Part shown: positions 1,921 through 34,584 of the stretch, in pieces
How the letters are laid out: each line of letters starts with the position of its first letter
Numbering within the stretch: position 1 is the first letter of the stretch
Assembly: GCF_024171815.1 (NCBI RefSeq)
Contig: NZ_JAMTCJ010000002.1
Coordinates: forward strand, 186,001 to 250,000
Source of the DNA: Williamsia maris
GTDB taxonomy: Bacteria; Actinomycetota; Actinomycetes; Mycobacteriales; Mycobacteriaceae
Direction: 5' to 3'
Length of the DNA: 64,000 bases
Notes under the pieces: model-generated
Seen by the model: only the letters and a program-made list of their open reading frames with translations
What the model was told of the DNA's origin: nothing
The model's database searches: none
Translations under genes and position numbers: made by a program

Positions 1921-3003
1921 TCACTCCTCGATGCGGTTGCCCTCGGAGTCCCAGTGCTCGGCGACCTTCTTGCTGGGTTGCACGCGCGGCGGTTCACCCG
2001 GCTGCTTCGGATAGTCCGGCGGCCAGTTCAGTTCGCCACCCGGCAACGACTCCCACAGCTCGAGCAACGGTTCGATCGAGTACGACTCCGCATCGATCTC
2101 GGCCCACGGATCCCCGTCGGCCACATAGTCCCGGATGGTCGTCAGGTTGAAGTCGCGGGCGTCGGTGATCTCGGCGAGCCGCGACCACGACACCGGCGTG
2201 CTCACCGGAGCCCCCGGCTGGGCGCGCAGGCTCCAGGCACTGGCGATCGTCCGGTCCCGCAGGTTCTGGTTGTAGTCCAGGAAGAGCCGCGTGCCGCGCT
2301 CCTCCTTCCACCACGCGGTGGTCACACCGTCGTCGCGGCGCTCGAGCTCGCGGCCCAGCCCGATGGCGGCGTGCCGGACCTCGTCGAACGTCCACCGCGG
2401 CTCGATGCGGACGTAGATGTGGATCCCGCGGTTGCCACTGGTCTTCGGGAAGCCGCGTAACCCCAACTCCTCCAACAACTCCTCGGCCACCGCGGCCACG
2501 CGTTGAGCGTCGGAGAACGATGTCCCCGGCTGTGGGTCGAGGTCGATGCGGAGCTCGTCGGGGTGATCGACATCCGAGCGACGGACCGGCCAGGGATGGA
2601 ACGTCAGGGCGCCCATCTGCGCGGCCCACACCAGCGACGCCGGCTCGGTGGGACACAGTTCGTCGGCCTTGCGACCGCTGGGGAACGCGATCGTCACGGT
2701 GTCGACGAAATCGGGCGCCCCCTTCGGCAGACGCTTCTGATAGAAACCGTCGCCCTCGCGGTCCTGCGGACCGGTGGCCAACCGCATGCCCTCGCGCCAC
2801 CCGTCGGGCCATCGCTCCATCGCGGTGGGGCGCTCGCCGACCGCCGACATCAGCACGTCGCCGACCGCCGCGAAGTACTCGCACACATCGAGTTTGGTGA
2901 TGTCCGGCGTCCGGTCGGTCGACGCGTAGACAACCCGGTCCGGGCTGGAGACACGCACCTCGCGGTCGCCGACGGCGACCATCGCCGCGGGGGTCTTGGC
3001 CAT
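1921..3003 (-). CDS. LigD-type primase-polymerase (Prim-PolC/PolD1-like)
   Basis: This stand-alone archaeo-eukaryotic primase-type polymerase is related to the polymerase domain of LigD and to mycobacterial PolD1 (Rv3730c). In those relatives it fills short gaps, preferring ribonucleotides, in excision repair. Visible motifs are the metal-binding RIDLDPQPG, the SGNRGIHIYV nucleotide-binding motif and the DYNQN segment. I chose the ATG at 3003 (MAKTPAAMVAVGD, 360 aa). It overlaps the upstream ligase stop as TGATG, which implies translational coupling. The open frame extends further upstream, but that part is ligase-antisense-like sequence without homology. The C-terminus (PPDYPKQPGEPPRVQPSKK) is typical of the family. 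Confidence 0.93.
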   Translation of the reverse strand: MAKTPAAMVAVGDREVRVSSPDRVVYASTDRTPDITKLDVCEYFAAVGDVLMSAVGERPTAMERWPDGWREGMRLATGPQDREGDGFYQKRLPKGAPDFVDTVTIAFPSGRKADELCPTEPASLVWAAQMGALTFHPWPVRRSDVDHPDELRIDLDPQPGTSFSDAQRVAAVAEELLEELGLRGFPKTSGNRGIHIYVRIEPRWTFDEVRHAAIGLGRELERRDDGVTTAWWKEERGTRLFLDYNQNLRDRTIASAWSLRAQPGAPVSTPVSWSRLAEITDARDFNLTTIRDYVADGDPWAEIDAESYSIEPLLELWESLPGGELNWPPDYPKQPGEPPRVQPSKKVAEHWDSEGNRIEE

Positions 3004-4049
3004 CAGTCGGCCCCTTCCAGGACGTCGTGCAGGTCGTAGGTCAGGGGGACCTCGAGCTGGTCGTAGCCGCAGCTCTCCGGGTCCCGGTCGGGCCGCCAGC
3101 GTTGGAACCGCACGGTGTGGCGGAAGCGGTCGCCCTCCATCTGGTCGTAGCCCACCTCGACGACGAGCTCCGGTCGGATCGGCACCCACTGGCCGGTTCC
3201 GGACGCATTCCATCGGTTGGGTTCGCCCTCGGCGAGCTTGTCCGGGTTCAGTCGCAGCGGCTCGAACTGCTGCTGCAGCTCGATGCGCTTGGCGTCGGTG
3301 AAGGCGCTCGACCCTCCGACGCTGTGCAGCTCACCGTCGCGGTAGAGACCCAGCAGCATCGACCCGAGCCCGGTGCCGCTCTTGTGGATTCGGTACCCGA
3401 TGACGACGCAGTCGGCCGTGCGCTTGTGCTTCACCTTGAGCATCTCGCGCTTGCCGGGGAGGTAGTGGCCGGCGATCCGTTTGCTCACGACCCCGTCGAG
3501 ACCGGCGCCCTCGAACGCGGAGAACCAGTCCACGGCGGTGGCCGGGTCGGTGGTCACGCGACTCACGCGCAGGCTGCCTGCCCCGGGGATGGCCTCGGTG
3601 AGCGCGTCGCGCCGGACGTCGAACCTCTCGCCGGTCAGGTCGCGGTCGCCGAGCGCGAGTGCATCGAAGCCGATGAACATCGCCGGTGTCTTCTCCGCCA
3701 GCATCTGCACCCGGGAATCGGCGGGGTGGATGCGTTGGCTCAGCGAGTCCCAGTCCAGACGCCGGACCCCGCCGATCAGTTTCTGGACCCCGATCTCGCC
3801 GTCGACGACCACGCGATCGGGCAGCTCCACGCGGGCCGCCTCGACGAGCTCGGGGAAGTAGCGGGCGAGGTCCTTGCCGCTGCGTGACCCGATGACCACT
3901 TCGTCGCCGTCACGAAAGATCAGGGCGCGGAATCCGTCCCACTTGGGTTCGTGCGAGAACACGGGTTGATCGCCGTCGAACTGGTCGGGTACCGAGGTCA
4001 CGGCCTTGGCCAGCATCGGCGACACCGGGGGGAGCACTGGGAGGTCCAC
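3003..4049 (-). CDS. ligC: ATP-dependent DNA ligase, LigC type
   Basis: ATP-dependent DNA ligase of 348 residues that seals nicks in repair. The adenylation motif EPKWDGFRA near residue 34 supplies the catalytic lysine. Further nucleotidyltransferase motifs are visible as SRSGKDLARYFPE, VVDGEIGV, FDALALG, GVVSKRI and LKVKHKRTADCVVIGY, followed by an OB-fold domain. Length and lack of extra domains match mycobacterial LigC (Rv3731), not the large LigD fusion. It starts at GTG 4049. It is the first gene of a two-gene unit with the polymerase, sharing the base T at 3003. The pair likely acts together in base-excision or gap repair. Confidence 0.93.
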   Translation of the reverse strand: MDLPVLPPVSPMLAKAVTSVPDQFDGDQPVFSHEPKWDGFRALIFRDGDEVVIGSRSGKDLARYFPELVEAARVELPDRVVVDGEIGVQKLIGGVRRLDWDSLSQRIHPADSRVQMLAEKTPAMFIGFDALALGDRDLTGERFDVRRDALTEAIPGAGSLRVSRVTTDPATAVDWFSAFEGAGLDGVVSKRIAGHYLPGKREMLKVKHKRTADCVVIGYRIHKSGTGLGSMLLGLYRDGELHSVGGSSAFTDAKRIELQQQFEPLRLNPDKLAEGEPNRWNASGTGQWVPIRPELVVEVGYDQMEGDRFRHTVRFQRWRPDRDPESCGYDQLEVPLTYDLHDVLEGAD

Positions 4050-30484: not shown

Positions 30485-31153
30485 TCATCGGGACGACCAC
30501 CCGCTGTCGTCCCATCCGTCGTCGTCGCCGGCGATGACACGATCGGCGCGCGTGGCCGTCGCCGAGACCAGATCGGCGTTGTGTTGATCGACCTCGGCGA
30601 CCCACGCGCGGGCGTCGTCGGGTGCTTTGCCGAACTCGACGTGCCGCGCGACGAGGCGGTCGGTTCGAGTTCGATCGTCGGTCGTCACGAACCACACGGA
30701 ATCCATCCGGGCGCGCGCCGCACGCCACTCCGGTTCGTCGAGGAGCAGATAGTTGCCCTCGGTGATCACGAGTCGGGCGGTCGGCGGCACCACCAGCGCC
30801 GCGGCCAGCGGCTGTTCGAGTTCGCGCTCGAATCCCGGTGCGTAGAGCGGTGTCTCGGTCTCCTGGCGCGCGCGGGTCAGCAGCGCGGTGTAGCCGGCGG
30901 CGTCGAACGTATCCGGCGCGCCTTTGCGGTCGAGGGTGCCCAGCCGCCGGAGCTGAGCATCGCCCAGGTGGAAGCCGTCCATCGGGACGTGGGCCACCCA
31001 GCCCGGCCCCCGCAGTTCGTCGATGCGGGCGACGAGCGCCTCGACCAGGGTCGTCTTGCCGGCGCCGGGTGCACCCGCGACACCGAGGATCGCGCGTCGG
31101 TGGGTCCCGACCGTCGCGATGGCGTCACGGGCGAGCCGGTCGGCGGAATACAT
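30485..31153 (-). CDS. Nucleoside/pantothenate kinase-like P-loop kinase
   Basis: The 222-residue P-loop phosphotransferase is related to uridine kinase, CoaA and fructose transport-associated kinases. Walker A is GVAGAPGAGKTTLVEAL, the substrate region is HVPMDGFHLGDAQLRRLGTLDRKGAPDTFDA, and EGNYLLLDEPEWRAARARMDSVWFV matches the family's lid-proximal strand. This PMDGFHL/EGNYLLL pattern is the signature of the YggC/FrcK-like nucleoside kinase group. The substrate is unknown. It ends 9 bases from the convergent NAD(P)-binding gene and is divergent from the ATP-grasp gene by 105 bases. No partner genes are evident. Confidence 0.85.
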   Translation of the reverse strand: MYSADRLARDAIATVGTHRRAILGVAGAPGAGKTTLVEALVARIDELRGPGWVAHVPMDGFHLGDAQLRRLGTLDRKGAPDTFDAAGYTALLTRARQETETPLYAPGFERELEQPLAAALVVPPTARLVITEGNYLLLDEPEWRAARARMDSVWFVTTDDRTRTDRLVARHVEFGKAPDDARAWVAEVDQHNADLVSATATRADRVIAGDDDGWDDSGWSSR

Positions 31154-31258: not shown

Positions 31259-32500
31259 ATGTCGCAGCCCACAAAGCTGCCGAAGAACCCGGACAAGGGC
31301 TACGTCGCCCTGCTGGGTTGGAGTCTCGCCGCGGTGGAAGCCCTCGAGAACTTCGATCGCCGATACCTCGTCGTCGCCCCCGAATGGGCCGAGGAGTACT
31401 GCACCGCGAACGACATCCCGTTCCTGCCGTGGAACTTCGAACGGCTCAACGACCGTTCGTTGGAGATCGCGGAGACGTTGCGCGACAAGGGCGTCGATGT
31501 CGCGATCCCGCTGTACGAGGAAACCGTCGAGTGGGCGGGCGCCATCAACTCGGTACTGCTGGACAACCCGCGGTTGTTCGGACAGGCGATGTTGTTGCGC
31601 GACAAGGCCTTGATGAAGCGGCGCGCCCAGCTGGGCGGCATCCGCGTCGGCATCTTCGAGGAGGCGCACGACCGCGAGGACGTCATCCGGTTCCTGCGGC
31701 GCGTCAACCAGACGCTGCTCAAGCTCGACGGCGATCCGAACGACCCGATCCACCTCAAGGCGTTCGACAAGGCCGGCTGCCTCGGGCACCGCGTCATCCG
31801 CACCCCCGACGAGGTCGACTCCATCCCGGAGGAAGAGTTCCCGGTGCTGATGGAGTCACATCTCGACGGCTGGGAGTTCGCCGTCGAGGCGTGGATCCAC
31901 AACGGAAAGATCAAGTTCCTCAACATCTCCGAGTACGTGACGCTCGGGTACTCGGTGTTCGTCCCGGCGACGCCGGAACTGGAGAAGTACCGTCCGGCGA
32001 TCACCGAGCAGATCGAGAAGCTCATCAAGACCTTCGACATCGAGTTCGGTTTCGTGCATCCCGAGTACTTCGTCACCAGCGACGGCGAGATGTACTTCGG
32101 TGAGGTGGCGTACCGGCCGCCGGGCTTCAAGGTGTTCGAACTCCTCGAGCGCGCCTACGGCTTCAACGCCTACCAGGGGCTCGCGCTGGCCTTCGACCCG
32201 AAGACCACCGAAGAGGAGATCGACGCGTTCTTCCCGCGCGAGGTCGTCGACGCCGCCGGTGTCGCAGGGTGTTTCGGTGTCTACCCGCGTCGCCGCGTGG
32301 TCAGCAACCTCGAGATCCCCGAGGTCACCCTCGACGACGACTACTACGAGACCAACGACCTCGCCCCGCCGCTGGAGGAGACCGTGACCAAGCGGACCGC
32401 CTTCGGGACGCACTGGGGTCTGTTGTACTTCTTCGGTGAGGACCCGTATCGGATGCGGGACCTGCTCAAACAACAGGAAGAACTGGACTTCTACGTGTGA
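31259..32500 (+). CDS. ATP-grasp ligase, overlapped with a papain-like partner
   Basis: ATP-grasp enzyme of 413 residues, a fold that activates a carboxylate as acyl-phosphate and joins it to an amine or thiol. The pre-ATP-grasp domain is GYVALLGWSLAAVEALENFDRRYLVV; ATP-binding strands lie around HLKAFDKAGCLGHRV and FPVLMESHLDGWEFAVEAWI. The metal-binding segment is EMYFGEVAYRPPG instead of the common EVNPRxGG. AAGGAAGG lies upstream of ATG 31259. The TGA stop overlaps the GTG start of the next gene by four bases. It resembles carnosine-synthase or peptide-ligase-like ATP-grasp proteins more than biotin carboxylases. The substrate is unknown. Confidence 0.88.
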   Translation: MSQPTKLPKNPDKGYVALLGWSLAAVEALENFDRRYLVVAPEWAEEYCTANDIPFLPWNFERLNDRSLEIAETLRDKGVDVAIPLYEETVEWAGAINSVLLDNPRLFGQAMLLRDKALMKRRAQLGGIRVGIFEEAHDREDVIRFLRRVNQTLLKLDGDPNDPIHLKAFDKAGCLGHRVIRTPDEVDSIPEEEFPVLMESHLDGWEFAVEAWIHNGKIKFLNISEYVTLGYSVFVPATPELEKYRPAITEQIEKLIKTFDIEFGFVHPEYFVTSDGEMYFGEVAYRPPGFKVFELLERAYGFNAYQGLALAFDPKTTEEEIDAFFPREVVDAAGVAGCFGVYPRRRVVSNLEIPEVTLDDDYYETNDLAPPLEETVTKRTAFGTHWGLLYFFGEDPYRMRDLLKQQEELDFYV

Positions 32501-34584
32501 AGCAGGAACTCGGGAACGACCTGACCGGACCGACGCAGACGATGGATGCCTCCTCGACAGAGGGGGATCCCACGCCTGCGCAGGATCCGGCTCTCACGTC
32601 GCGGCTCGCGCAGCTCGACCATGCGACCGCCGCACTGCGTGACGCGCCGAGCTTCACCAAGAACTCCAAGGTGCGGCGCGTTCTCGACTCCCTGCACCGT
32701 GTGCTGGCACAGAAGGGCGGGTGCGCGGCGATCCGGGAACGCGCGGCCGAACTCGACGGTGCCGGGTTGTTCGAGGGCACCGACTGGTCGCAGCCCGACA
32801 TCCTCGTCCCGGGCTTCGTCGGGCCGAGCCTGCGCAGCGGCCAGAACGACACCGTCGTGCTCGAGGCGACCAGCGAACTGCGGTTGGTGGCCATCGCCGC
32901 CGGCGAGTTCACCCACCCGTCGATCTCCGCGGACGACGCGCGGCGGTTCCTGTCGCAGGTTCTCGCGATGAACCTCGAGGTGTTGTTCACGCCGCCGTCG
33001 GAGTCCGAGCGGGTTCGTCTGGGCCGCACGGCGTATCTGATCCGCGACCTGTTCGCGTACGTGGCCGAGCAGATCGGTTACGACAGCGTCCTCGACGAAC
33101 TCGTCGAGGAGATCTGGCGCATCCTGCGGCAGCGCCCGATCCAGGTCGAGCAGGTGACCTCGATGGTCACCCGCATCGCGATCTACCGCGACGACCCGAG
33201 CGTCGATCTGGGCAACTCCGGTCAGGGCCTCGACCGCCTGATCACCGCCCTGTTCGGGACCACCGACTCCTGTCGCGAGGACCCCGGCGTGGACGTCTAC
33301 CGGTCACGCCTGGAGAACATGGACGCCGGTGCCCTGCAGTTCGAGGCCGGTGGCTTCGCGCGCGCGATGCACGATACCGGGCTGGTCTCGCCGTACCACG
33401 CGACGCTGGTGCGGTTCCTCGTGGAGAACAACTCCTACGGGCTGCCCGAGGCCCTCGGTTTGTCCGAGACCGGCCGGATCTCGTTGCAGCGCTATCCCGA
33501 GCTGGTCCACCGCCTCGTTCTCGAGGCCGTGCATCCCGAGACCGCGCAGTGCCTCTACGGGCTCGCACTGCTGCTCGACCGCGGCATCCTGCACCAGCCG
33601 CCGATCGTGCCGTCGCTGTGGCGTCAGATCGCACTGAAGCTCTCCCCCGCCGTCCGCGAGCGGATGACGTTGGCGTTCGGGCCCTCCCCCGACCCCGCGT
33701 CCCGGCTGCTCGGCGGGCTGCTGTCCATGCTCGGTCAGCCGCTGGGCGTCGGACAGGGTGACAACCCGACCTGCCAGTCGGCGCGGGCGTTGTCGATGTG
33801 GGCCTACAACGACCCGGACTACCTGCTGCAGATGGTGGTCTGGGCGGCGCGCGACGACGAGATCGTCATGCACTTCGAGGGTCAGCCGTTGTCGTCGACC
33901 GACAGTGTCGGCGGTGTCGCGACCAGCGACCCCATCGACCTCGACCCGGTGTCGCTGCTGCTGGTCCCGCACCTCGACCGGATCTACGCCGAGATGGTCC
34001 GGCGGTGTGCCGGACGGCCGGGTGATCCGCATCGCTGGGTCAACCCCGAGTTCCACGGCTGGTGGGCCGCACGCGAATTCCACATCGACGTCGATGTGGA
34101 GACCGGCAACCTGATCGATCTCGACGATTTCCTACGACAGTTCCACGCGTCGTACCACCCGGCGTACAACGGGGATCAGCCGTTGATCCACCCGCAGCCC
34201 GCCGGTGTCGCCGTGACCGACAGCGCAGCCCGCTACGTCGGCTGGCACGCGATCACGATCCTGCGCGTCGCCGCCGACCCCGACGGCGTGATGCGGGTCT
34301 ACTTCTTCAACCCCAACAACGACAGTGGCCAGGACTGGGGCGACGGCGTCGTCGTCGGCACCGCGGGCAACGGCGAACGGGCCGGCGAGGGATCGCTGCC
34401 GTTCGACCAGTTCGCGTCGCGGCTCTACATCTTCCACGCCGACCCGCTGGAGAACGGCGAGCCCGAGAACGTGCCCGCCGAGGACATCGACCGCATCATC
34501 GGGTTCATCGAACGTAGTTGGGGCGCCGACCGGATGCCCGCGGACACCGTCACCGCCGAGGGGTCAGGGGACTCGAACCCCTGA
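32497..34584 (+). CDS. Large unknown protein with papain-like Cys-His-Asn arrangement
   Basis: I do not recognise this 695-residue protein as a named family. Residues 1-400 are mostly helical, with no signal peptide or membrane segment. The C-terminal part has Cys426 in NPTCQSARALSMW, His584 in VGWHAITILRV and Asn605 in VYFFNPNNDSGQDWG, in the order and spacing of papain-fold proteases and transferases, whose last motif is NSWGxxWG. A Gln420-Gly-Asp-Asn precedes the Cys. It starts at GTG 32497, inside the stop of the ATP-grasp gene. The pair could make and cleave, or ligate and transfer, one amide product. The last residues are encoded by a perfect hairpin. Confidence 0.8.
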   Translation: MKQELGNDLTGPTQTMDASSTEGDPTPAQDPALTSRLAQLDHATAALRDAPSFTKNSKVRRVLDSLHRVLAQKGGCAAIRERAAELDGAGLFEGTDWSQPDILVPGFVGPSLRSGQNDTVVLEATSELRLVAIAAGEFTHPSISADDARRFLSQVLAMNLEVLFTPPSESERVRLGRTAYLIRDLFAYVAEQIGYDSVLDELVEEIWRILRQRPIQVEQVTSMVTRIAIYRDDPSVDLGNSGQGLDRLITALFGTTDSCREDPGVDVYRSRLENMDAGALQFEAGGFARAMHDTGLVSPYHATLVRFLVENNSYGLPEALGLSETGRISLQRYPELVHRLVLEAVHPETAQCLYGLALLLDRGILHQPPIVPSLWRQIALKLSPAVRERMTLAFGPSPDPASRLLGGLLSMLGQPLGVGQGDNPTCQSARALSMWAYNDPDYLLQMVVWAARDDEIVMHFEGQPLSSTDSVGGVATSDPIDLDPVSLLLVPHLDRIYAEMVRRCAGRPGDPHRWVNPEFHGWWAAREFHIDVDVETGNLIDLDDFLRQFHASYHPAYNGDQPLIHPQPAGVAVTDSAARYVGWHAITILRVAADPDGVMRVYFFNPNNDSGQDWGDGVVVGTAGNGERAGEGSLPFDQFASRLYIFHADPLENGEPENVPAEDIDRIIGFIERSWGADRMPADTVTAEGSGDSNP

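Follow-up and report, generated by a model that had tools for sequence, protein, structure and literature searches.

We describe a pair of adjacent genes, here called A and B, found in a 64,000-nt stretch of the Williamsia maris genome (the window; host genome G000, 4.93 Mb). Gene A encodes a protein resembling ATP-grasp amide or peptide ligases, and gene B a papain/calpain-like protein with a large helical N-terminal part. The two are strictly co-inherited, and the ectoine synthase gene ectC is present in every pair-bearing genome in which it was sought. We propose, as a plausible reading to which we give somewhat less than even confidence, that A and B constitute a self-contained two-gene module that aids ectoine-producing bacteria under osmotic or related stress. 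The genes and their junction are located in the window as follows.

31259..32500, + strand: gene A, 413 aa, ATG start, ATP-grasp amide/peptide ligase-like
32497..34584, + strand: gene B, 695 aa, GTG start; neither Pfam nor NCBIfam has a model for its family
32497..32500, + strand: GTGA, the B start codon over the A stop codon, a 4-nt overlap

Co-inheritance of A and B

In a sample of 151 genomes drawn evenly from the family, B was present in 37, a close A was present in the same 37, and the remaining 114 carried neither. Three further matches to A in this sample were weak (34-35% identity), and one of these was a second match in a pair-bearing genome. We then considered gene order in 110 loci, comprising 30 from the family sample and the best 80 of at least 577 relatives (at least 595 pattern matches), with some genomes represented in both sets. 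In all 110, A immediately preceded B on the same strand, the A of one locus (L080) being cut by the end of its contig. The conserved co-occurrence that a preliminary description of this DNA had put forward as a check on the pair was therefore borne out both in the 37 B-positive family genomes and in the 110 loci.

The association extends to more distant bacteria, as A adjoined at least one B in 8/8 B-positive genomes of a gammaproteobacterial class sample and in 10/10 of a sample of one order (one genome is in both). On contig 16 of genome G706 the two genes are convergent yet adjacent, and in G795 (locus L147) the order is B, a histone deacetylase (HDAC)-like gene, A. That A and B stay neighbours through such rearrangement argues for a functional tie between them. 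Both genes also look real, given that the ratio of nonsynonymous to synonymous substitution rates (dN/dS) was 0.05-0.10 for A and 0.10-0.16 for B in five pairwise comparisons each, and a chance pairing is rejected in view of co-inheritance together with this purifying selection.

The preliminary description had further called the genes translationally fused. Its open reading frame (ORF) sizes and the GTGA overlap, as well as the residues C426, H584 and N605 of B and the string NPNNDSGQDWG, were all verified, and the GTGA with which B starts is made up of the third base of the last sense codon of A, a GTG, and the TGA stop. While the term is apt for the window, it does not hold as a general trait, since with start codons picked mechanically the 4-nt overlap was found in 25 of the 110 loci. 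Of these, 12 belong to the family sample (the genome of the window among them), 10 are labelled Rhodococcus, two Williamsia and one Gordonia. All 10 Rhodococcus-labelled loci have it, and where there is no overlap the gap between A and B is mostly about 6-190 nt. The overlap is a local feature.

Two variations on the arrangement were seen. G706 has a second B copy (L145, 7899-9890), 52% identical, near TRAP transporter genes; the 16 kb that were read there contain no A. In addition, a gene for an HDAC-type amidohydrolase adjoins the pair in L144 (5485-6582, - strand, order A-B-HDAC) and L147 (2327-3562, + strand, order B-HDAC-A-ectC), both gammaproteobacterial and the only such cases among L001-L151; it is possible that this enzyme is a third component.

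Ectoine synthase in pair-bearing genomes

Because A is directly followed by a gene for ectoine synthase in the divergent locus L147, we searched the family, gammaproteobacterial class and one-order samples for PF06339 over the family cut-off; two phylum-sample genomes (G427 and G501), the Halomonas record and most of the named loci lie outside this search. The gene was present in 130/151, 39/274 and 33/63 genomes overall, and among pair-bearing genomes in 37/37, 8/8 and 10/10, which amounts to 54 distinct genomes as G695 is in two samples. A match in G653 (E 6.4e-4 over 69 residues) was dropped from the class count as not credible; G653 has no EctC match, and if it were included ectC would be present in 8/9 of the class-sample genomes.

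The gammaproteobacterial result carries the most weight. Two of its eight pair-bearing genomes, G693 and G804, are close kin with near-identical B proteins, and the other B proteins are mostly 42-75% identical between genomes. In the genus of the window, the single genome without ectC among eight sampled (G018) is also without A and B. The co-occurrence points to osmoadaptation or to a habitat in common, and away from a secondary-metabolite cluster, and from ectC alone we infer that the pair-bearing genomes belong to ectoine producers.

Physical linkage was found in two loci. In G795 ectC directly follows A, and in L051 (Saccharopolyspora soli) an ectC homologue (2421-3191, - strand) lies about 2 kb upstream of A, with what by eye appears to be a C-terminal remnant of ectB upstream of the ectC homologue. 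The latter arrangement may be what is left of an ectoine cluster that decayed or was rearranged next to the pair.

Sequence and predicted structure of A and B

The assignment of A as an ATP-grasp protein was supported by a match to Pfam ATP-grasp_4 (E 1.2e-5, 25.5 bits) that falls just below the curated cut-off of 27 bits, and by weak profile matches (E 0.002-0.004) to the L-amino acid ligases 3vot (BL00235) and 4wd3. Residues E269, E282 and R286 (HPEYF...GEVAYR) were invariant in 11/11 alignment rows, which span 76-93% identity, and the residues aligned with them in 3vot and 4wd3 are likewise E, E and R, positions that we take to be the acidic metal-site residues and the arginine of ATP-grasp enzymes. 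The protein is about 76-99% identical across two phyla. Its ligase chemistry would be that of its family.

The features of B, in window coordinates, are the following.

32581..33735, + strand: B residues 29-413, helical N-terminal region of no recognised family (predicted secondary structure)
33655..34446, + strand: B residues 387-650, papain/calpain-like catalytic domain with Q420, C426, H584 and N605 (motifs and model)
33772..33774, + strand: Cys426 codon, predicted nucleophile, in the QGDNPTCQ motif with Gln420 six residues before (invariant in 137/137 rows)
34246..34248, + strand: His584 codon, predicted base, in the GWHAI motif and strand 580-593 (invariant in 137/137 rows; model)
34309..34311, + strand: Asn605 codon, predicted orienting residue, in the YFFNPN motif right after strand 599-604 (invariant in 137/137 rows; model)

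The papain order of Cys426, His584 and Asn605, on which the earlier assignment had been based, was thus kept in every aligned row. That assignment had missed both Gln420, which is equally invariant in the 137 rows, and the closer likeness of B to calpain. The order Q420, C426, H584, N605 is that of clan CA, the spacing from Gln420 to Cys426 presumably equals that of papain Gln19 to Cys25 (papain numbering), and the His-Ala and Asn-Pro pairs at the catalytic residues are, we take it, as in calpain.

In the structural model of B, helix 426-438 begins at Cys426 and strands 580-593 and 599-604 hold or flank His584 and Asn605. A Cys at the start of a helix, with the other two residues in or next to the strands that come after it, is the arrangement expected of a papain-like protein. 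A fold search with this model placed calpain cores at ranks 1-15, the matched part being residues 387-650. A first model, made from 15 sequences, was poor (predicted local distance difference test, pLDDT, 63.6) and was left out of conclusions on the fold. The papain fold proposed earlier therefore has moderate support, in that the modelled C-terminal part resembles the papain-fold cores of calpains.

Sequence searches gave no family for B. There was no match to Pfam, nothing better than E 0.17 among PDB sequences, and no Peptidase_C2 match for B or for any of 24 scanned members; these 24 gave no papain-like Pfam family, only isolated matches of one member each, the best at E 0.012. An NCBIfam hit to the SE1561 family (E 0.059) was under the cut-off and was not believed. 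The first 400 or so residues form a helical region that, as originally noted, matches no known family; in the fold search they yielded only scattered helical rows, which we left uninterpreted.

Distribution and genomic setting

The pair is patchy in Actinomycetota and Gammaproteobacteria. Beyond the family sample it was found in 4/396 genomes of the phylum sample (one of the four being that of the window, and A being present in the remaining three), in 8/274 of the gammaproteobacterial class sample and in 10/63 of the one order. Judging relatedness from sequence identities, the A proteins of Saccharopolyspora and Amycolatopsis share 90% identity with that of Oceanimonas (L106), and the nearest relative of the Oceanimonas B is that of Nocardia (75%). 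Because this pair sits, by eye, among ordinary-looking Oceanimonas genes beside lysS, these identities to actinobacterial copies suggest that the pair was transferred horizontally between phyla. Among the matches listed, the closest named relative of the window's B (97% identity) is from a Williamsia metagenome-assembled genome (L031).

A relative was present in one of 72,556 plasmid records, that of Halomonas, and the pair is accordingly seen in unrelated host settings, near lysS in Oceanimonas and on a large plasmid in Halomonas. In this strain, Halomonas sp. PA16-9, the plasmid measures 1.8 Mb; its copy of B (L118, 14971-17055) has a frame shift close to the end of the gene, and A is open throughout. 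Viral carriage was rejected, as no relative was found in 50,697 phage records or among the 56 pattern matches that two short peptide patterns gave in viral_contigs.

We also asked what else accompanies the pair. In 82 loci with flanks of up to 6 kb and ORFs of at least 90 residues, no neighbour family occurred under more than six genus labels (eight loci), and the largest of the 41 neighbour families listed covered 11 loci; a secondary-metabolite cluster was rejected for this lack of a widely shared neighbour. Ten neighbours of gammaproteobacterial loci, identified with Pfam, showed no theme (GGDEF proteins, MFS, LysE, NnrU, glutathione peroxidase, an integrase and others). An anti-phage defence system was rejected, with 0/2 proteins matching PADLOC models. 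By eye, a betaine-type transporter gene stands beside B in L143. In the window itself, where the preliminary description had seen no amino-acid donor, carrier or transporter gene nearby, three neighbouring proteins were scanned (a P-loop kinase-like protein, an NADP oxidoreductase and an aldo/keto reductase) and showed no tie to the pair; the gene for the first, which is small (30485-31153, - strand), is divergent to A, and the Pfam matches shown for it are all below cut-off.

Proposed mechanism and alternative explanations

ATP-grasp enzymes form an acyl phosphate first and then an amide, and papain-type enzymes form a thioester that is resolved by hydrolysis or transfer. In the most economical model, A would activate a carboxylate as the acyl phosphate and couple this with an amine, so that a small peptide or an amide results. 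B would take the acyl group as a thioester by means of Cys426, His584 and Asn605, with Gln420 in the oxyanion hole, and would then transfer it to a second amine or trim the amide, while its helical N-terminal part of about 400 residues probably binds the substrate or A. Of the make-and-break or ligate-and-transfer pair envisaged in the preliminary description, the pair itself, its co-inheritance, the invariant residues and a calpain-like model stand. The chemistry, including transfer or trimming by B, the identity of the substrate and the stress role, is what we infer. That the product might protect against osmotic stress is suggested by the co-occurrence among genomes and the two cases of linkage.

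A more specific version, which we regard as speculative and on balance doubtful, is that A and B make a compatible solute not yet described, an amino-acid amide or a compound of dipeptide type akin to the neutral glutamine derivatives, that supplements ectoine, the genes forming a two-gene cassette moving between Actinomycetota and salt-tolerant Gammaproteobacteria and B being a calpain-like enzyme turned acyl transferase. As context rather than evidence, two neutral glutamine-derived osmolytes have been reviewed, and their biosynthetic enzymes were called unexplored in 2005 (PMC1224877).

Several observations weigh against a role in osmoadaptation. The probabilities of the observed co-occurrence under random draw (hypergeometric P of 1.6e-3, 8.7e-8 and 7e-4 for the family, class and order samples) are inflated by related genomes, and an ectC homologue was near A and B in only two loci among L001-L151 and the window, so that linkage is not constant. 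Moreover, 93 of the 130 ectC-bearing family genomes carry neither A nor B; with so many lacking the pair, it would be accessory to ectoine synthesis and not part of it. It is conceivable that the link reflects habitat only, and that the pair has a general role in soil or saline bacteria, such as turnover of amides or polyamine conjugates, unrelated to osmoadaptation. The high prevalence of ectC in the family makes the actinobacterial overlap weak evidence, close linkage is rare, and the comparison was made without a lifestyle-matched control gene, all of which suit this explanation. We nevertheless consider it unlikely, given the contrast in Gammaproteobacteria between the low overall frequency of ectC and its presence in all eight pair-bearing genomes, whose B proteins are, apart from those of G693 and G804, mostly far apart.

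It was also reasonable to consider that A ligates an amino acid or tag onto a protein, as RimK does, and that B removes the tag or matures the target, in a regulatory role. Pairs of ATP-grasp and papain-fold enzymes fit conjugation and deconjugation from what is known of these families, calpain, the nearest fold, acts on proteins, and the helical part of B could bind one. On the other hand, among ORFs of at least 90 residues the flanks hold no widely shared third gene that could be the tag, the nearest solved relatives of A are ligases of free amino acids, and ectC in all 54 genomes is left unexplained, so that we rate protein tagging as improbable. Less probable still is ligation and transfer in specialised metabolism, with both the acyl donor and its acceptor coming from outside the pair, as by BtrH and BtrJ, the latter being the ATP-grasp enzyme of the butirosin pathway. 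While the same two activities are paired there, and the HDAC-like gene beside A and B in two gammaproteobacterial genomes would be in keeping with it, no cluster partner recurs widely, the identity of A across two phyla is unlike that of most metabolite clusters, and none of the 24 scanned B members matches a papain-like Pfam family.

The stress module that we favour would turn an orphan pair, strictly co-inherited and accompanied by ectC wherever this was tested, into a testable salt or desiccation hypothesis, with possibly a new stress metabolite. B is of interest in itself, as a family unmodelled in Pfam and NCBIfam, yet with relatives encoded in at least 577 genome stretches, that combines an invariant papain-type residue set with a large helical part.

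Comparison with known systems

No description of the pair was found in the open-access literature, judged by titles and the beginnings of abstracts; the papers covered did not include the 2009 amidoligase survey of Iyer and colleagues, in which an earlier mention would be most likely. The nearest solved relatives of A, the L-amino acid ligases 3vot and 4wd3, agree with it in the HxE...E...R region; unlike a full-length match, the similarity spans just about 115 residues and leaves the first 190 residues of A uncovered. The calpain protease core (peptidase family C2) is the best structural match of the modelled residues 387-650 of B, which differs from calpain in lacking a Peptidase_C2 sequence match and in its N-terminal region.

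Three systems invite comparison with the pair as a whole. Glutathionylspermidine synthetase/amidase, which we take to hold an ATP-grasp amide ligase and a papain-superfamily CHAP amidase in one polypeptide, likewise couples a ligase to a cysteine amidase; A and B, however, are two genes with no Pfam match to glutathionylspermidine synthetase or CHAP amidase in either, and B has a calpain-like domain and some 400 extra helical residues. The butirosin enzymes share ATP-grasp activation with papain-like acyl transfer, a papain-like fold being given for BtrH (PMC2922099), but no antibiotic cluster was seen around A and B, and B has no Pfam BtrH match. The ectoine pathway EctABC has a phyletic range in common with the pair in the three samples and an ectC neighbour in two loci; A and B nonetheless match no ectoine enzyme family in Pfam or NCBIfam, and are absent from most ectC-bearing genomes of the family. 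Since pairs of ATP-grasp and papain-type enzymes are known in principle, the chemistry would be a variant. The general idea of a ligase with a papain-type enzyme is ordinary, and what is new is the family of B and the link to ectoine synthase.
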